In this document: piece after piece, positions 18,363 through 23,957 of the stretch
Layout: the number at the start of each line of letters is the position of its first letter
Numbering within the stretch: the stretch's first letter is position 1
Virus record (IMG/VR): IMGVR_UViG_3300029309_000287
Location: 1-27,161 of that record
Strand: one strand, 5' to 3'
From: a virus
Length of the DNA: 27,161 nt
The notes under the pieces: model-generated
Told to the model about the DNA's origin: nothing
The model's database searches: none
What the model saw: the letters and a program-made list of their open reading frames with translations, nothing else
Program-made: the position numbers and the translations under genes

Positions 18363-18875
18363 TCAATGCAAGACCTCTTCATCATCATGTGCATTAACAG
18401 CGGTATCCCCTCCGCTCCATGAAATCGTGAAGGTCTGTGCTTGCGGTTGGTCCTCTTTCTTGTCACGTATTCCGAATGGCTGATTACGAGCCGTTGTCCA
18501 TTTCAGTGTATCTATTTCTAAACGCCGTCTGTTTACCTCAGCATTGAGAAACCGCACGTCTCCCTCAGGCAATGGTTCCATTGCAAGCCCATTGATTTTG
18601 TCCGCGTAATACTCAGCTTGGAGAATACGCCCTTTACGATAAAGCGACCACAATTCTTCATCAGCTGCAACAGCCCTGGTTACAGCCCGGTAACTTGGCA
18701 TTGCCTTATCTTTTGTGATGTCCACAAGCGTTTCGCCTGATGCCAGACGATCAACTATCTTTTCCATAATGACTGTGTTTACTGCTCGTCTACTCAATCT
18801 TGATCCCTTCAAAAAGGCCCCTACCGTCGCAGTGTTAAACCTAACCAGGTAGAGGCTAGTTATTGAGGCATACAA
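18363..18875 (-). CDS. Terminase small subunit
   Basis: 170 aa if started at ATG 18875, but that start has no ribosome site. An in-frame TTG at 18797, with GAAGGGA 6 nt upstream, would give SRRAVNTVIMEKIVDRLASGE as the N-terminus and fits the family better, because small terminases usually begin just before a first helix of this kind. The HTH region is about residues 37-75 of the long form: IVDRLASGETLVDITKDKAMPSYRAVTRAVAADEEL, with the pattern G-E-(S/T)-L-x-x-I-x-x-x-x-x-M-P-S. Then come RILQAEYYADKI and FLNAEVNRRRLEIDTLKW, typical of terS proteins of P22-like and other phages. Role: recognises phage DNA for packaging. First gene of the minus-strand virion block. Confidence 0.82.
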   Translation of the reverse strand: MYASITSLYLVRFNTATVGAFLKGSRLSRRAVNTVIMEKIVDRLASGETLVDITKDKAMPSYRAVTRAVAADEELWSLYRKGRILQAEYYADKINGLAMEPLPEGDVRFLNAEVNRRRLEIDTLKWTTARNQPFGIRDKKEDQPQAQTFTISWSGGDTAVNAHDDEEVLH

Positions 18876-18948
18876 AGTTAACAGGCGAAGAACTCTGTAT
18901 ATTTTCTATATAGATCATATCACAATCTAACACAATAAATAATTACTG

Positions 18949-18965
18949 TTGACACAATATGTCAA
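18949..18965. promoter_or_regulatory. Palindromic operator TTGACACAATATGTCAA
   Basis: Perfect 6-bp arms TTGACA and TGTCAA around CAATA; 17 bp in all. It covers the -35 box and part of the spacer of the promoter above. A copy with 15 of 17 identical bases lies at 21997-22013, upstream of the recombination module. This is a likely repressor site, most simply for the HTH protein encoded at 21753-21956. Confidence 0.7.
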
Positions 18966-18976
18966 TTATGTATTAT
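18949..18976 (+). promoter_or_regulatory. Near-consensus sigma70 promoter
   Basis: The -35 box TTGACA (18949-18954, perfect) is followed after 16 nt by -10 TATTAT (18971-18976, one mismatch). It points at the small-gene module that starts at 19006. The -35 box is one arm of a palindrome, so a bound repressor would block it. Transcription probably starts near 18984. Confidence 0.82.
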
Positions 18977-19005
18977 GAAGGCATAACAACAAAGAGGTAT
19001 ACAAA

Positions 19006-19317
19006 ATGAACTTATACAAAGAAGCAATGTCCATTGCAAAAGAAGCTTACGAAGAAACATGTTGCTTTGATGAAGCTTACGACAGAATACACGAAATCTG
19101 TGACAATCACGAAATCAGCATTTATTACGGCAAGGCCATAAACTTTTGCGCTGAACAACATACATATAGAGGTGAAGAATACCTAGAGGACTGTGGAGGC
19201 ATTGCACAAGACGGAGACACATTCGGATCTATCGCTTGTAGAATTGCTTTTGCTACTTTGTTGGTAGCGTCTCAAGATGCGCTTTCAGAATTACAAGATG
19301 ATATGGAGGCCGCATAA
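19006..19317 (+). CDS. Small acidic protein, early module gene 1
   Basis: 103 aa, acidic, mostly helical, with six Cys residues (C19, C20, C32, C48, C63, C78). It starts at the first ATG after the promoter, with AAAGAGG in the leader GAGGTATACAAA. It includes GEEYLEDCGGIAQDGDTFGS and a hydrophobic C-terminal helix (IACRIAFATLLVASQ). No family recognised. First position behind a strong, repressible promoter suggests an early host-takeover or regulatory protein; inference only. The stop overlaps the next ATG (TAATG). Confidence 0.75.
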   Translation: MNLYKEAMSIAKEAYEETCCFDEAYDRIHEICDNHEISIYYGKAINFCAEQHTYRGEEYLEDCGGIAQDGDTFGSIACRIAFATLLVASQDALSELQDDMEAA

Positions 19318-19547
19318 TGAACAGAAAAAAATACATTCTAAACAGAAACGAAGAGTCCAACACAGTTTTAGTTAATAAACTTTGTGCCATTTACGTCAGA
19401 AAATTACTTGATGAACAAAAAATAGTTCAAGAGCATTTTAAAAAAAAGGGTTTTGATGATCCAAAAACTATAGACGTTTTAGATACTTTTTTTTGGAAAT
19501 TCGAAAGTTATTTTCAAAGTTTTGCTACAGAAGAGGATATGTCATGA
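19317..19547 (+). CDS. Small protein, early module gene 2
   Basis: 76 aa, coupled by TAATG to the gene before and ATGA to the gene after. The sequence is rich in Lys, Phe and Glu, with a helix LVNKLCAIYVRKLLDEQKIVQEHFKKKG and a Phe/Trp-rich segment FFWKFESYFQSF. Function and family unknown. No membrane segment or signal peptide. Confidence 0.68.
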   Translation: MNRKKYILNRNEESNTVLVNKLCAIYVRKLLDEQKIVQEHFKKKGFDDPKTIDVLDTFFWKFESYFQSFATEEDMS

Positions 19548-19654
19548 CAATTTCAGAACTCATAACAATCATCAAGAACATCAAACTTACCGACGTTGCC
19601 ATATGCGTTTTAATCTTTGCAATGGTTATCGCATGGCAATTTATAACAATTTGA
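19544..19654 (+). CDS. 36-aa single-span membrane peptide
   Basis: MTISELITIIKNIKLTDVAI and then CVLIFAMVIAWQFITI; 36 aa with one transmembrane segment from about residue 18 to 36. The ATG overlaps the previous stop (ATGA) and has GAGGAT upstream, which supports translation. Short phage membrane peptides in early operons can act on the host membrane, for example in exclusion or lysis timing; nothing here shows which. The reading frame is too short for standard gene calls. Confidence 0.55.
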   Translation: MTISELITIIKNIKLTDVAICVLIFAMVIAWQFITI

Positions 19655-19666
19655 TTGTATCAGATA

Positions 19667-19704
19667 GCACCGTTTAGGCGGTGCGTTCTCATGCAATCGC
19701 ATGA
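19667..19704 (+). repeat. Two adjacent hairpins in the early-module leader
   Basis: GCACCG/CGGTGC (19667-19672 with 19679-19684, loop TTTAGG) is followed closely by TCATGC/GCATGA (19689-19694 with 19699-19704, loop AATC). They lie between the membrane peptide and the 88-aa gene. No T-run follows, so mRNA processing or stability is more likely than termination. Confidence 0.5.
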
Positions 19705-19746
19705 CTTGAGGTATACAAAGAAAGGAAACCAAATTGGAGGTTAAAG

Positions 19747-20013
19747 ATGACTAAACATAAGTTAAAAACACAATTTACAGAGAATGAGCTTTTAGAGCTT
19801 CTGGAGTTCTACAATACCACTAAAACAATCTTAAACGACATGTCAGAGAATTTTAGCACTGACACAAGCAACCTTCACAATTTACAATTTCAAATGCACA
19901 AGGTTCAACAAACGTTTAAGTTTAGGCCAAGAGCTGACGAACATGGCGAGCCTTTATATTATTACGCTGACCACGTTCTAGCTAATCATAAAAAAGCTTA
20001 CTACCCAGAATAG
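19747..20013 (+). CDS. Small charged protein, last gene of early module
   Basis: 88 aa. A GGAGG ribosome site is 7 nt before the ATG, and a GAGGTATACAAA leader like that of the first gene stands at 19709. The N-terminal half is helical (FTENELLELLEFYNTTKTI), then comes a basic stretch KFRPRADEHGEPLYYYADH. Family unknown. A strong terminator follows at once, so it closes the transcription unit. Confidence 0.7.
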   Translation: MTKHKLKTQFTENELLELLEFYNTTKTILNDMSENFSTDTSNLHNLQFQMHKVQQTFKFRPRADEHGEPLYYYADHVLANHKKAYYPE

Positions 20014-20035
20014 ATAACGTCTCAGAGCCACAGAG

Positions 20036-20065
20036 AAGCCCCAGAAATGGGGCTTTTTATTTTTG
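20036..20065 (+). terminator. Rho-independent terminator of the early module
   Basis: A 7-bp stem AAGCCCC/GGGGCTT (20036-20042 with 20049-20055), loop AGAAAT, followed by TTTATTTTTG. It ends plus-strand transcription from 18984 onwards. Read the other way the tail is TTCTCT, weaker, but it may also help stop the converging unit whose last gene ends at 20067. Confidence 0.92.
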
Positions 20066-20066
20066 C

Positions 20067-20513
20067 CTACCCTTGCCTATCTAAACTTAGCTCAAGCCAT
20101 TTCTCAAGCTTCTCCGCGAGTGCTACACGCTGCATAGGGTCTGACATAGTGAACTCTTGAGACACTTCTATAAAATTTTCTGTGGATAGCATCGGTCTTA
20201 GTCTACGTAGGATTTTTTCGATACGCCACGCCAGGGGATCATTCTTCCGTTTCGCCTTGCCAAGTTTGTACCGGGGCTGCATCCTGGTCAACGTCTGCTG
20301 CAGAGCCGACTTAGTCAACGTAGGCAAAACCGAATCACTTGGCTGCTGTAATACAGTGTCTGTGTATACACTGTCTGTATGTATTACAGTGCTATTACTA
20401 TGTATATTATTAGTAGTTTCAGTGTATACACTGTGATTAGCACTGTATTCACTTACACTGTAATCACTATCTCGGTCTGTAGACCTCGCGTTAGCGTACT
20501 TACGTATTGGCAT
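20067..20513 (-). CDS. Protein carrying an internal iteron-like cluster; possible replication protein
   Basis: 148 aa, starting at ATG 20513 and overlapping the previous gene by 14 nt. Residues 13-58 are low-complexity and rich in Ser, Thr, Asp and Tyr with repeated (S/D)SVYT(E/D). Residues 80-105 are basic (YKLGKAKRKNDPLAWRIEKI), and the C-terminal 45 residues are helical (MQRVALAEKLEKWLELSL). The basic helical C-terminal half could bind DNA. Dense repeats inside the first half of the gene recall the way lambda places its origin within gene O. No initiator family is recognised, so a replication role is only suggested by the DNA repeats. Downstream it ends next to the early-module terminator. 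Confidence 0.65.
   Translation of the reverse strand: MPIRKYANARSTDRDSDYSVSEYSANHSVYTETTNNIHSNSTVIHTDSVYTDTVLQQPSDSVLPTLTKSALQQTLTRMQPRYKLGKAKRKNDPLAWRIEKILRRLRPMLSTENFIEVSQEFTMSDPMQRVALAEKLEKWLELSLDRQG
20351..20464. repeat. Iteron-like CACTGT cluster around an AT-rich core; candidate origin
   Basis: Six exact copies of CACTGT or its complement ACAGTG lie at 20353, 20369, 20386, 20429, 20441 and 20456. They include the perfect 14-bp palindrome CAGTGTATACACTG (20420-20433) and a second GTGTATACAC (20362-20371). Between the two halves is an AT-rich stretch, 20392-20419. Iterons beside an easily melted core are the usual build of a theta origin. The repeats also dictate the low-complexity peptide, so a purely coding explanation remains possible. 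Confidence 0.5.
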
Positions 20514-20700
20514 TTGTCAACCCCATATTTTCAGAGTAGGTCAACGTAGGATTTTGAGCACGTTTCTGGATGTAATAATCACTGATCTTTTCCCAACATT
20601 CTGGCTTGTCTGCCGGGTCACAGATCAAATCCCCGGTGGCCAGAATAATCCAGCCACCTCGATTAACATCATGCTCACGACCACAAGCCCGGCAAGCCAT
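20500..20700 (-). CDS. Small Cys-rich, probably zinc-binding protein
   Basis: 66 aa from ATG 20700 (MACRACGREHDVNRGGW), which follows the previous stop by one base (TAGCATG). ATG 20709 would add three residues and overlap the upstream gene. C3-x2-C6, H10 and later Cys residues (ICDPADKPECW) could form a zinc site. The C-terminal third is polar. Phage proteins of this kind are common in replication regions, but the function is unknown. The longer upstream frame to 20781 overlaps its neighbour by 80 nt and is unlikely. Confidence 0.62.
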   Translation of the reverse strand: MACRACGREHDVNRGGWIILATGDLICDPADKPECWEKISDYYIQKRAQNPTLTYSENMGLTNANT

Positions 20701-20701
20701 G

Positions 20702-20899
20702 CTACTCATTCTCAACAACAGTGAAACCACTGCCTCCACACTCCTCACAACAGCGCCTCTCTTCTTTGAGAAAGCCACCATTGTAATAGTCTACGTAGGG
20801 TACTTCTGCCAGGTAAAAACCATCGCCACCGCAATACTTGCAATCCTCAGTTTGAACCTCATACTTTGTACCATTTGATAGCTGATAAACTACAGTCAT
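20702..20899 (-). CDS. Small DnaJ-type zinc-finger protein
   Basis: 65 aa with two CxxCGGxG motifs: CKYCGGDGFY (residues 20-29) and CEECGGSGFT (51-60). That is one complete zinc-binding module of the type found in the DnaJ central domain. There is no J domain. The N-terminal 18 residues form strands (VVYQLSNGTKYEVQ). Small proteins with this module are frequent in phages; a chaperone role should not be assumed, since it may be a nucleic-acid or protein-binding adaptor. Its start overlaps the preceding gene by 4 nt. Confidence 0.72.
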   Translation of the reverse strand: MTVVYQLSNGTKYEVQTEDCKYCGGDGFYLAEVPYVDYYNGGFLKEERRCCEECGGSGFTVVENE

Positions 20900-21123
20900 T
20901 TCGCGCCTCCAACTGTTTTCTTCACAACCACGCCAGCTTGCTCCATTTTACAACAAATCTCATAGATAAATTTCTGTAGTTTTTTTAAATCTTCATATGA
21001 AAGTTTCTCTTCATAATTAGTTTCTGGCCTACTTGTAAGATTTAATATTGATGGATTTCTACTATCATATTCAAACATTACTTGATCTTGTTCATCAAAA
21101 GAAAGTGTTTTGTATTCAAACAT
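20896..21123 (-). CDS. Small phage protein, possible paralogue of the protein at 24303
   Basis: 75 aa. The start at ATG 21123 is chosen because it makes TAATG with the upstream gene; the frame extends to 21147 but overlaps that gene. The N-terminal half looks like beta strands (YKTLSFDEQDQVMFEYD), then come PSILNL and a helix LSYEDLKKLQKFIYEICCKM. The same pattern (strands, YD, PS-x-L, then T/S-x-ED-x-x-K-x-x-x-F) is seen in the plus-strand protein at 24303-24533. Function unknown. Confidence 0.65.
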   Translation of the reverse strand: MFEYKTLSFDEQDQVMFEYDSRNPSILNLTSRPETNYEEKLSYEDLKKLQKFIYEICCKMEQAGVVVKKTVGGAK

Positions 21124-21410
21124 TATTTTGCCCTCCACTTTATACATGACTTACCCCATTTAGTTTTACCACGCTCACCACTGTCAACTACCTTGTCCTG
21201 GTTCTGTAGCTCCGATAAACGTGGCTGCACTGAGCCGTATGGTACGTTCAATAGCTCCGCTATATCTTCCGTTGATAATGATACTGATGTTTTCTCAAGC
21301 AACTGATACACTCGATCACGTATCGTTAGCTTGCCTTTAAAGTTACTGTTCGCCGCTTCTTTGCTTGTGTCGGTCTTTTGGTAACCTACGCCTGTTTGTG
21401 TATATGGCAT
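21123..21410 (-). CDS. Winged-helix DNA-binding protein
   Basis: 95 aa. Residues about 28-92 form a winged helix: KLTIRDRVYQLLEK, then STEDIAELLNVPYGSVQPRL as helix-turn-helix, then SELQNQDKVVDSGERGKTKWG as wing, and a final strand SCIKWRAK. The N-terminus MPYTQTGVGYQKTDTSKEAA is a leader often found in phage winged-helix proteins in replication or regulation regions. Likely a DNA-binding regulator or replication accessory. It starts directly beside the stop of the nuclease gene. Confidence 0.75.
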   Translation of the reverse strand: MPYTQTGVGYQKTDTSKEAANSNFKGKLTIRDRVYQLLEKTSVSLSTEDIAELLNVPYGSVQPRLSELQNQDKVVDSGERGKTKWGKSCIKWRAK

Positions 21411-21749
21411 TTATTCCTCCGTTGTTTTTTTCCAGCCAATCCATTCTAAGAATGTTTCATATGTTTCAATCGGCAGCACAACCAACGTGCGCCCCCGGTC
21501 CTTACGAACAAATAGCATATCGCTACCGTCCTGATCCAAAGCATCATACAAATCCTGGTATGCTCTGGCTCTTCGCTTGCACTCAGCAAGCAAAGCCTGT
21601 TGTGGGCCGATCTTCAAATCACCCGAATAATTCCCTTTGACAGCTCCTGACAACGGAATACGCTCCGCGTCTACACCCCATGATTTATGTAGGTTTACTA
21701 TCTCACGCTCGAAATTTGCGCCCTTATCTCTGCTCGCCTTGCCACCCAT
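21411..21749 (-). CDS. PD-(D/E)XK nuclease, Holliday-junction-resolvase-like
   Basis: 112 aa with AGGTGA upstream of the ATG. The catalytic pattern of the PD-(D/E)XK fold is visible: E14/E16 in FEREIVNLHK, the invariant-type D44 in YSGDLKI, and E56-C-K58 in LLAECKRRA. The N-terminal GKASRDKGANFERE is the usual opening of small archaeal-type and phage resolvase-like nucleases. Likely role: cutting branched recombination or replication intermediates before packaging. It works naturally with the recombination genes encoded in the opposite direction just to its right. Confidence 0.8.
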   Translation of the reverse strand: MGGKASRDKGANFEREIVNLHKSWGVDAERIPLSGAVKGNYSGDLKIGPQQALLAECKRRARAYQDLYDALDQDGSDMLFVRKDRGRTLVVLPIETYETFLEWIGWKKTTEE

Positions 21750-21752
21750 AAA

Positions 21753-21956
21753 TCACCTGTAAAAATCATTGGGCGTAACTTGCCCCATCGTTGCATCTTG
21801 TATTAAATTCATATACTTAGCAGATGGTATCTTGTAATCCTTGTGGTCGATAGGCAAACACCAACGCCGTACAACGGTAGCATGTGGAGCACCTACTTTC
21901 TCAGCTAACTGCTTCAATGTCATGTTCGCGTTTTTACGATATTCTTCTAATTTCAT
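21753..21956 (-). CDS. Small HTH regulator
   Basis: 67 aa. Residues 5-35 (YRKNANMTLKQLAEKVGAPHATVVRRWC) form a helix-turn-helix of the Cro/YdaS kind, and the C-terminal half (IPSAKYMNLIQDATMGQVTPNDFY) is like that of phage Cro-type proteins where the last helix contacts a second subunit. AAGGGG is 8 nt upstream of the ATG, and a TATAGT -10-like box is at 21978-21973. It is transcribed away from the recombination module and lies next to a 17-bp operator copy, so it probably represses its own and neighbouring promoters. Confidence 0.8.
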   Translation of the reverse strand: MKLEEYRKNANMTLKQLAEKVGAPHATVVRRWCLPIDHKDYKIPSAKYMNLIQDATMGQVTPNDFYR

Positions 21957-22025
21957 CTATAAAACCCCTTGACTATATTTGACATATCGTGCATCTTTAA
22001 CACAAAATGTCAAGAGGTATAACAA
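21957..22025. promoter_or_regulatory. Divergent promoter/operator region
   Basis: Between the HTH gene (minus) and the nuclease gene (plus). Plus direction: -35 TTGACA (21979-21984), 18 nt, then CAAAAT (22003-22008) as a weak -10. Minus direction: -10 TATAGT (21978-21973) with a poor -35. Two direct copies of TTGAC(T/A)TAT-type sequence start at 21969 and 21979, and the operator copy is at 21997-22013. The plus leader ends AAGAGGTATAACAAATG, like that of the early module. Confidence 0.65.
21997..22013. promoter_or_regulatory. Second operator copy TTAACACAAAATGTCAA
   Basis: Matches 15 of 17 positions of the palindrome at 18949-18965. It overlaps the candidate -10 box for the recombination module, so a bound protein would repress that promoter. 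Its left arm is degenerate (TTAACA), suggesting weaker binding than at the early-module promoter. Confidence 0.6.
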
Positions 22026-23000
22026 ATGGGCATACGAAAAACAGACTGGGCTGATAGGTTCAATTACAAGTGGCATAGCAATCCAAGCACACCTGATGCC
22101 TGGACATTCTTTGACAAATCAGTGCTGCGCCCAATGCGTGATAAAGCGTGGGCAATACTACGCGGTGACATTGAGGGCGATCAGGGTTGGGCAAGGAAAG
22201 TATTGTACGACAGTGCGTACTACAAAGACCCACAAGGCAAAACACAATACAGCGACAACACAAACATGGTCAGTGGTAGAGCCGTACAAGTCTATACAGA
22301 TATGTTGCTCGTGGAAGATGCAGACGTAACGGAAGCCTACGGTGAAGCAATCAATATGCTACACGGATACGAGCCACCCTATTGGCATGACCACGATGTA
22401 GACAAGGCTGTTTTAGCTCATAGAGAAAACATTTGCTATGACGCTGAAGGTAAGAAATCCAAAGAACCTACAATGGCTGAGTTTTCTTTGGTCTGTGAAA
22501 ACGCGGCTAGTGGCATACGTGAAGCAATGTCAGGTGCTAACCGTATTGGTGGAGAGATAGAGCTACACGGAAACATACCGCATTGTGAGCTACCGTACTT
22601 CGGCAAACCAGATTACGGAGAGGGTCGTGTAGAGCTAAAGACACAGTGGGATCAGCAAGCACATACGGACAGCCCACGAGCAAACTCATTGCCCAAGAAA
22701 ATCAAAGCACCGCATATTACACAGCTTGCCGGGTATTGGTATTTGTCAAAGATAGTGCCTAAGATTGTCTATGCTAATCGGTTAGGCTACGTAGTTTTAC
22801 AGCCTACAGAACAAGAGTTAGAACATGCGTTGCACGATATATCGGTTGCTTGCAGACGCAGAGAAAAATTAATGAAAGTTGCAGATGATGTAGTTGATCT
22901 GCTTAATTTAACTGATCCGCATTTTGCAGACAGTTTTGTGTGGCGTGATTTAGCGCCTGAGTTTTTTATGATGGCGAAAGGATTGTTTGGTAAAAGATGA
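22026..23000 (+). CDS. RecB/Cas4-like PD-(D/E)XK exonuclease
   Basis: 324 aa. The C-terminal half has the full RecB-family nuclease signature: D196 in YFGKPDYGEG, E203-L-K205 in RVELKTQWD, and the QxxxY motif at Q233-Y237 in ITQLAGYWYL. H120s residues and the N-terminal helical region (WADRFNYKWHSNPSTP) complete a domain of the usual size. Likely role: a 5'-3' exonuclease that makes single strands for the annealing protein encoded next (ATGA overlap). This nuclease plus annealase plus SSB-like set is the functional equivalent of lambda Red. Iron-sulfur cysteines of true Cas4 proteins are not apparent. Confidence 0.82.
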   Translation: MGIRKTDWADRFNYKWHSNPSTPDAWTFFDKSVLRPMRDKAWAILRGDIEGDQGWARKVLYDSAYYKDPQGKTQYSDNTNMVSGRAVQVYTDMLLVEDADVTEAYGEAINMLHGYEPPYWHDHDVDKAVLAHRENICYDAEGKKSKEPTMAEFSLVCENAASGIREAMSGANRIGGEIELHGNIPHCELPYFGKPDYGEGRVELKTQWDQQAHTDSPRANSLPKKIKAPHITQLAGYWYLSKIVPKIVYANRLGYVVLQPTEQELEHALHDISVACRRREKLMKVADDVVDLLNLTDPHFADSFVWRDLAPEFFMMAKGLFGKR

Positions 23001-23623
23001 CAGATTTAATTAAAGCAATGGCTGAGGTAAACGACCTCAACCGTACTCACGGTGTTACGCAACGTGGCGGTAAAAAGTACACAGAAGTATTTGTACGTGT
23101 TGAAGCTTTCCGAAAAGCTTTTGGTACTGATATGGGCATTGAAACGAATATCGTTGATGACAATGGACAACGTGTTATAGTGCAAGCCTTCATTAAGAAC
23201 AAAGACGGAATGATAATCGGTAGTGGGTACGCTGAAGAAATAAGAGGATCTTCAAACGTAAACAAAACAAGCGCTATAGAGAACTGTGAAACCTCAGCAA
23301 TAGGTAGAGCCTTAGCATCCATTGGGCTACACGGTGGTAGCTATGCTTCAGCCAATGAGCTTGTTGCAGCCAAGAGAAAAGAACAGGCGATAGATGACAC
23401 GCAAGCACAGACAAACGGCATGCCACAGAACCAAGGTGAGTGGGTAGCATGGTGTAAAAACCTTACCGAACAATATCAGGCGGCAAAGTCCAAACGAGAG
23501 CTTGCCGACGTTGATAGAAAAACTGATGATGCTTGGTTAGACGAGCTTAAAAATCAGTATCCACAATTATTTCAAAGGCTAGTGCAAAGATTAACAGAAA
23601 AGGAGAATAGCTTTGAGCAATAG
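22997..23623 (+). CDS. Single-strand annealing recombinase, ERF/Rad52-type candidate
   Basis: 208 aa, starting in an ATGA overlap with the exonuclease gene. The conserved core is at residues 88-120: VNKTSAIENCETSAIGRALA then SIGLHGGSYASANE, a pattern well known in phage annealing proteins assigned to the ERF or Sak-type groups. The N-terminal strands (TEVFVRVEAFRKAFG, IVDDNGQRVIVQAFI) fit the Rad52-like fold. The C-terminus is a polar linker plus a helical tail. Role: pairs complementary single strands, giving concatemers and repair. The exact subgroup cannot be set by eye. Confidence 0.78.
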   Translation: MTDLIKAMAEVNDLNRTHGVTQRGGKKYTEVFVRVEAFRKAFGTDMGIETNIVDDNGQRVIVQAFIKNKDGMIIGSGYAEEIRGSSNVNKTSAIENCETSAIGRALASIGLHGGSYASANELVAAKRKEQAIDDTQAQTNGMPQNQGEWVAWCKNLTEQYQAAKSKRELADVDRKTDDAWLDELKNQYPQLFQRLVQRLTEKENSFEQ

Positions 23624-23957
23624 ACCAACACTAGGAGTAAAGTCACTAACGATAGATGGCTTTATGAACAACGGACAGGCTGTAGAAATGAGAGCTTCAG
23701 CATGGATCAACGTGCCAAAGGACAAGCGCTTTGACCAGGCTACGCTTGCCGTAGCTGAGAGGGTAAAGAAAGCAATGATAGATCATGGCATATCTGTGAG
23801 CGTACAACTACAACATCGAAACGGAGATGATCCAAAAATGTGGCCTAAAGTTGCAAGCTTCCCTTTATTTCCTAATAAACCAATGGAAGAGCAACCAATG
23901 TTGCAACAACAACAAACAACTGAACCTCCCTTGGGAGAGGATGAAATTCCATTTTAG
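23613..23957 (+). CDS. SSB-like protein with DEIPF tail (TTG start)
   Basis: 114 aa. The start is TTG at 23613, overlapping the previous gene by 11 nt and preceded by AAGGAG at a good distance; the next ATG would remove 17 residues including the first strand. Residues 8-70 are strand-rich (LTIDGFMNNG, EMRASAWINV, VSVQLQH). A Gln-rich linker follows, and the last residues GEDEIPF are the acidic tip used by bacterial SSB proteins to recruit partners. Most likely a single-strand-binding or OB-fold accessory of the recombination set. The core fold is not clearly an OB fold by eye. Confidence 0.68.
   Translation: MSNRPTLGVKSLTIDGFMNNGQAVEMRASAWINVPKDKRFDQATLAVAERVKKAMIDHGISVSVQLQHRNGDDPKMWPKVASFPLFPNKPMEEQPMLQQQQTTEPPLGEDEIPF

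Follow-up and report, generated by a model that had tools for sequence, protein, structure and literature searches.

A conserved 17-bp operator set and its candidate small repressor in marine phages related to HTVC010P

Introduction

Can one small protein control several separate transcription units of a marine phage through a single DNA site? The question is raised by a contig of 27,161 bases from an uncultured marine virus (IMG/VR record IMGVR_UViG_3300029309_000287, itself incomplete), the whole of which is referred to here as the window. A 17-mer, TTGACACAATATGTCAA, stands at 18949-18965 and a relative with two mismatches, TTAACACAAAATGTCAA, at 21997-22013; a sequence-only reading had taken them for operators of two distant units, both controlled by the product of a helix-turn-helix (HTH) gene beside the second site. 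Sequence comparison indicates that both sites are members of a conserved operator set, and it strongly implicates the small HTH protein as the repressor of a phage repressor-operator circuit.

In its terminase and virion genes the window is related to the HTVC010P-type pelagiphages, which are podoviruses, TerL being ~57% identical over 98% to its counterparts in these phages. The leftward virion genes start from the terminase small subunit gene (18363-18875), and beyond it lie a rightward early/accessory module, a leftward operon (20067-21956) with the HTH gene and a resolvase-like gene on its promoter-proximal side, and a rightward recombination-like module (Table 1).

Results

The operator and its conservation

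When the whole window was scanned with the 17-mer at up to three mismatches, only the two places named above were returned (18949 on both strands), giving three matches against 0.12 expected, and none of 100 shuffles reached three. Both sites are thus present as first described and are rare in the window. The 17-mer is not the perfect palindrome it had been taken for, as the sequence and its reverse complement disagree at three positions; the symmetric element consists of two perfect 6-bp arms, TTGACA-N5-TGTCAA. The degenerate arm pattern at up to three mismatches is not enriched in the window (24 matches against 18.7 expected), and the proof therefore rests on the relatives rather than on the window. 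Nor do the two sites make up the full set, since two further sites, OB and O3 (Table 1), had been missed. Another two-mismatch match, at 22101-22117 inside the open reading frame (ORF) at 22026, is degraded in near relatives and was set aside as a chance product of coding sequence.

We searched for relatives of the HTH protein, which gave 80 loci at 52 to 100% identity, and read 17 relatives as whole records, full or nearly so. Inverted repeats of the same kind lie upstream of the HTH gene in nearly all 80 loci, usually as a pair, the main site near -57 and the other near -28. Most of the 17 share the gene order of the window, with an operator before the HTH gene and another between the accessory module and the terminase small subunit gene. 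Across 31 promoter regions from 15 phage lineages the motif is found in 23 at one mismatch or fewer and in 28 at two or fewer, compared with means of 0.02 (maximum 2) and 0.35 regions (maximum 4), respectively, for 179 permuted-arm controls. Only the 5-bp spacer works (28 regions); other spacers give 0-3. Sites with at most one mismatch are concentrated in promoters, 21 of 29 falling inside 4,370 bases of promoter DNA in 13 records totalling 353,631 bases. As judged from sequence, -35 hexamers alone cannot account for a motif so specific in its spacing and its arms. In two relatives (G015 and G016) the exo gene is no longer beside the HTH gene and has a two-mismatch site of its own.

An independent search started from the terminase small subunit. 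The operator was found upstream of this gene at two mismatches or fewer in 46 of 80 loci, a level reached by ~2% of shuffled upstream sequences, and, apart from one at 3 mismatches, the remaining loci do no better than chance (4-5 mismatches or more). Among the operator-positive records searched, 16 of 25 contain the HTH gene; in the other nine the contigs end short of its location, less than 4 kb from the terminase gene. The operator-negative records form two groups. In the first, the HTH gene is present and the operator is kept at its promoter, there is no divergent accessory module, and all substantial ORFs before the terminase run the same way. The second, which includes four records of 22-34 kb, has neither the HTH gene nor the operator. 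In the isolate HTVC010P no HTH homologue was found, and there is no operator at the equivalent places.

Promoter anatomy

The operator before the early module forms part of the best promoter-like site of its region, P_E. Its 5' arm is the -35 hexamer of a sigma70-type promoter matching the consensus at 11 of 12 positions, in agreement with the sequence-only reading, and the arrangement is the same in relatives. As the arm doubles as the -35 hexamer, repression by blocking of RNA polymerase is implied.

In the divergent region, the outer arm of OA (TTGACA, 22013-22008, minus strand) supplies the -35 of the HTH promoter in nearly all near lineages, and the matching -10 stands at about -34. For the recombination-side promoter, the -35 in relatives usually comes from the outer arm of OB, and the -10 lies in the same middle stretch. 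The two promoters face each other and overlap, each operator spanning the -35 of one and the start region of the other, an arrangement that predicts joint repression and autorepression. In this conserved geometry the site at 21997 covers the start point of the recombination-side promoter, whose -35 lies in the site at 21969. The earlier proposal that the 21997 site covers the -10 of this promoter is possible by consensus (TTGACA-18-CAAAAT, -10 at 22003-22008) and doubtful on other grounds, because the transcript would start inside the ribosome site.

Both modules have the leaders first described for them, GAGGTATACAAA at 18994 and GAGGTATAACAAA at 22014. Further copies of the GAGGTATACAAA leader occur at 19708-19719, before the third accessory gene, and at 18865-18876 (GAGGCATACAAA), an orphan without a gene behind it. 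These extra copies could be recombination boundaries for the swapping of accessory genes.

The HTH protein

The divergent HTH gene beside the second site is a real ORF of 67 amino acids. An AlphaFold2 model, built with 25 relatives in the alignment, has a predicted local distance difference test (pLDDT) score of 94.4 and contains five helices, those of the HTH spanning 14-21 and 26-33. The model has an all-helical Cro/CI/XRE-like fold, and the nearest solved folds are CapH, SinR, C.BclI and P22 c2, at template modelling (TM) scores of ~0.6-0.67. At the sequence level the match to HTH_3 (20.3 bits) stays below the Pfam cut-off of 23. Other matches are weak, namely a phrog_7950 repressor (2e-4) and Aca3 (9vt3; E=0.027 as a single sequence, 0.11 as a profile), and PADLOC gave no match for the HTH protein or the early genes. 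The sequence-only reading, which knew of no matching regulator, thus holds for the sequence and not for the fold, which is predicted to be of ordinary Cro/CI/XRE type. At 67 amino acids, it lacks a C-terminal domain for cleavage or oligomerisation. Its co-occurrence with the site makes it the likely operator binder.

An operator-like site inside genes

Throughout the window clade a one-mismatch site (O3) occupies a fixed position, +302/303 from the HTH start, within the resolvase gene. We initially read it as a plain coding decoy, an interpretation dropped after a codon test on 12 resolvase genes that are less than 95% alike and keep the valine of PLSGAVKG. Five of their 43 amino-acid-invariant degenerate codons are also codon-invariant, and three of these five (TTG, TCA and GTC) write the palindrome (hypergeometric ~0.0008). 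The site-writing codons drift where the resolvase has M or A instead of that valine. Copies scattered at random positions inside genes had been named beforehand as a result that would speak against the operator; the scan of the window yielded one strong intragenic copy, at a fixed distance and conserved at the codon level.

In some relatives a cytosine methyltransferase gene lies between the HTH and resolvase genes. Inserts of the C5-cytosine type are seen 6-8 bp behind the HTH gene at L105:9243-10385, L106:1709-2461 and L162:218-964, and are plausibly counter-restriction genes placed under the HTH promoter. The HTH-adjacent methyltransferase has a one-mismatch site at +312/313, and differences between its versions are confined to the 5-bp spacer. 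Other homologues of the enzyme, encoded elsewhere or farther from the HTH gene, have 5-9 mismatches, with nothing in between. Synonymous invariance is modest in this gene (3 of 3 site codons among 19 of 53, with three HTH-adjacent copies comparable). The distance to OA is 359-360 bp for the resolvase site and 368-370 bp for the methyltransferase site, about one helical turn apart.

Could the intragenic site be a coincidence of coding in the resolvase or methyltransferase gene? Its position in the resolvase coincides with a conserved protein motif, PLSGAVKG; clades with PLSGAMKG lack the site, and the methyltransferase copies that have it may share a single origin, possibly one event. We nevertheless consider coincidence rather unlikely, given the codon-invariant positions that write the site and its occurrence in an unrelated methyltransferase only directly downstream of the HTH gene. 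On these sequences, selection for an auxiliary operator inside coding sequence appears to be the better account, and we hypothesize that the intragenic site acts through DNA looping. It is tempting to speculate, with rather less than even confidence, that the 67-amino-acid protein forms a helically phased repression loop and that the auxiliary operator is held by synonymous-codon selection, constraining whichever gene sits there. The papers that we could search contained no direct precedent for phage intragenic operators with looping.

Integrase and lifestyle

Five relatives (G008, G009, G010, G015 and G016) encode a tyrosine integrase, and in all five the first start codon of the integrase frame has an operator 10-53 bp ahead of it. 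Near the integrase of G008 (10022 region, L115), a transfer RNA (tRNA) 3' end, GGTTCGAGTCCCGTCACTCCCGCCA, stands just before the gene and its operator. This sequence is found mainly in Alphaproteobacteria (SAR11, SAR116 and others), indicative of an attachment site and of the host range of the temperate relatives.

Neither a tyrosine (PF00589) nor a serine (PF00239) recombinase was found in the window, as far as this incomplete record extends, or in the near clade. The latter includes G001 (L102, L103), a record of 35,203 bases without an integrase, which is probably a complete genome, because one methyltransferase frame continues from one contig end into the other, where a short repeat marks the junction. 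The lysogeny-like switch proposed by the sequence-only reading is hence unlikely for this clade. The corresponding alternative, in which the HTH protein would be the lysogeny repressor of a temperate or pseudolysogenic clade, draws on the integrase-associated sites and on the tRNA 3' end in G008. We consider it improbable in view of the recombinase searches, which extend to the complete-looking 35.2-kb record, of a 67-residue protein lacking the C-terminal domain, and of a profile search of genome contigs with the HTH alignment, which returned no chromosomal copies or prophages. Early-gene shut-off is likelier than lysogeny because the window clade is without an integrase. The circuit appears common to temperate and integrase-less phages, and we infer that this clade uses it for temporal control.

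The accessory module and neighbouring genes

In a set of 45 sequences the first genes behind the early operator form 17 unrelated groups, some short frames possibly being mis-called, and several of these groups occur among phages whose terminase small subunits are more than 90% identical. The accessory ORFs of the window have no confident PHROG, Pfam or PADLOC match. Pfam names among first genes of relatives are ArdC antirestriction (PF08401 + PF18818), GP88 and Kyano_Gp96, and still other relatives encode proteins of no known kind in this position. In L175 the gene directly behind the early operator encodes an ArdC-type antirestriction protein (ArdcN + MPTase). A second operator, at 0-1 mismatches, lies between accessory genes in five loci (L110:5224, L112:9072, L114:11913, L125:7046 and L208:4436), and some accessory modules may hold more than one controlled promoter.

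On the recombination side, the ORF at 22026 has no confident family match. Matches of the divergent module are phrog_11717 (2e-26, function unknown) and a weak exonuclease match for the ORF at 22997. In Pseudomonas phage ZRG1 an HTH homologue lies near PD-(D/E)XK nuclease and RecT genes. An Rfam scan of the window gave no match.

Table 1. Coordinates of the regulatory sites and genes discussed for the window
Feature	Coordinates	Strand	Remarks
Promoter P_E, sigma70-type	18949..18976	+	-35 TTGACA 18949-18954 (operator 5' arm); 16-bp spacer; -10 TATTAT 18971-18976
Operator O_E, TTGACA-CAATA-TGTCAA	18949..18965	+	Exact site; before early/accessory module
Leader/ribosome site of early module, GAGGTATACAAA	18994..19005	+	Conserved only in nearest relatives
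Early/accessory module	19006..20013	+	ORFs 19006-19317, 19317-19547, 19747-20013; no known family
Likely intrinsic terminator of accessory module	20033..20058	+	11-bp stem + T-run; between converging operons
Winged-HTH gene, HTH operon	21123..21410		Product of DNA-binding type
PD-(D/E)XK Holliday-junction-resolvase-like gene	21411..21749	-	Second in HTH operon; PF24608 1.3e-9, phrog_244 7.8e-15
O3, intragenic operator-like site, TTGACAGCTCCTGACAA (sense strand TTGTCAGGAGCTGTCAA)	21637..21653	-	In resolvase gene; 1 mismatch; +303 from HTH start codon
HTH protein, 67 amino acids, proposed repressor	21753..21956	-	Divergent from 22026 module; co-occurs with operator
OB, second, weaker operator of divergent region, TTGACTATATTTGACAT	21969..21985	.	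3 mismatches to arm consensus; 0-2 mismatches at same place in relatives
OA, main operator of divergent region, TTAACACAAAATGTCAA	21997..22013	.	Kept at -56 to -58 from HTH start in near clades
Leader/ribosome site of recombination-side module, GAGGTATAACAA	22014..22025	+	GAGGTATAACAAA at 22014
Divergent module, recombination-like by context	22026..23957	+	ORFs 22026-23000, 22997-23623, 23613-23957

Discussion

We consider it quite likely that the 67-amino-acid HTH protein is a small Cro/CI-fold repressor acting through TTGACA-N5-TGTCAA at P_E, at its own operon and at the recombination-side module. Sequence and comparison show the site, its spacing, its location at promoters (including that of the integrase in relatives), its conservation and the predicted fold; from these we infer that this protein is the binder and forms dimers, that it represses rather than activates, when it acts and what the intragenic site does. 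The protein would bind the 17-bp inverted repeat, probably as a dimer, and since the 5' arm is the -35 hexamer at each promoter site, bound protein and RNA polymerase would be mutually exclusive. Its targets would be P_E and the pair of sites at 21969 and 21997 over the two overlapping divergent promoters, which serve the HTH operon (HTH, resolvase and winged-HTH genes and others) and the recombination-side module. On phage entry the repressor would be absent, and P_E and the divergent promoters would fire on host RNA polymerase; as the HTH protein accumulates, the accessory genes, the recombination module and the HTH gene itself would be shut off. The auxiliary site in the second gene of the operon, ~360 bp from OA, would probably make repression stronger, through either a DNA loop or a roadblock. 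The original idea of one regulator for two distant units is strongly supported, at the level of sequence, by conservation of the site, its co-occurrence with the HTH gene and the integrase promoters; it has to be widened, as the HTH operon is a third unit.

Several observations weigh against a repressor of this kind. The phage lineages share ancestry, such that the counts of promoter regions are not counts of independent trials or events. In the most distant HTH relatives (e.g. L062, L070-L073 and L078) the sites near the HTH gene have more than two mismatches, and the OB site of the window is itself weak, with three. Matches of the HTH protein in the PDB are at fold level, all with E >= 0.08 (best 0.08), and the invariance of the octamer HATVVRRW is partly a search bias, as this octamer was among the seeds of the HTH search.

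The operator might be real and be read by another protein, either the winged-HTH protein or a host regulator. A second protein of DNA-binding type is indeed encoded in the HTH operon. The winged-HTH gene of the window was, however, undetected by tblastn in G008-G011, G015 and G016, which keep the sites; large records without the HTH gene also lack the site, and a host protein would leave the link to the phage HTH gene unexplained. We regard a different reader as a slim prospect. That the repeats are mere facing -35 hexamers in intergenic DNA, with no regulator, is very improbable: TTGACA is the exact sigma70 -35 consensus and lies at the -35 of predicted promoters, but a -35 alone needs no TGTCAA exactly 5 bp on, as the spacer test and permuted arms demonstrate, and the site tracks the HTH gene across phages.

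The proposed small repressor resembles lambda-type Cro/CI and P22 c2 in being a small HTH protein that shares their fold (TM ~0.67 to P22 c2 for the predicted model), in the similar size of the palindromic operators, and in having two sites over divergent overlapping promoters, its own included, with copies at distant early promoters. In contrast to lambda and P22, one such regulator is seen here, it has no CI-like C-terminal domain, an operator arm is the -35 hexamer, the accessory module and, in relatives, the integrase are under the same site, and identity to known repressors is negligible. The intragenic site recalls lac O2, an auxiliary operator that lies within a structural gene at a distance of a few hundred base pairs from the promoter. 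Unlike lac O2, the site described here appears to be kept by synonymous codon choice and is present in two unrelated genes able to occupy the position, and its looping is hypothetical.

The Aca (anti-CRISPR-associated) families, in which the logic of an inverted repeat within a promoter has been tested for repression (PMC9410906), likewise pair a small HTH protein with inverted repeats, set in the core promoter of an early accessory module whose genes are hypervariable, as found here. The HTH gene of the window differs in lying ~3 kb from the accessory operon, in a DNA-processing operon with the resolvase and winged-HTH genes, and PHROG, Pfam and PADLOC searches found no known anti-CRISPR (acr) family with which it would share an operon. 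In archaeal viruses one conserved regulatory sequence precedes unrelated, fast-changing early anti-defence genes (PMC11065993), and these regulons are similar in placing a conserved sequence before variable early genes. In the phages described here the promoter is instead of bacterial sigma70 type with an embedded operator, and a candidate for the cognate regulator can be named.

The novelty lies in the regulon (the accessory and recombination modules, the HTH operon itself and, in relatives, the integrase), in the use of the -35 hexamer as an operator arm throughout, and in the intragenic copy. Almost no regulation is known for these widespread uncultured marine phages, and a 17-bp site marking the promoters of one regulator offers a sequence handle on their early genes. 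As the genes behind the operator swap completely between near-identical phages, and one of them is ArdC-like, the site could serve to collect candidates for anti-defence genes, much as promoter motifs have served in archaeal viruses. The intragenic copy would clearly exemplify a regulatory sequence that shapes a protein-coding sequence, and the presence of the operator at the integrase of temperate relatives illustrates how a single circuit may be of use to both lytic and temperate phages.

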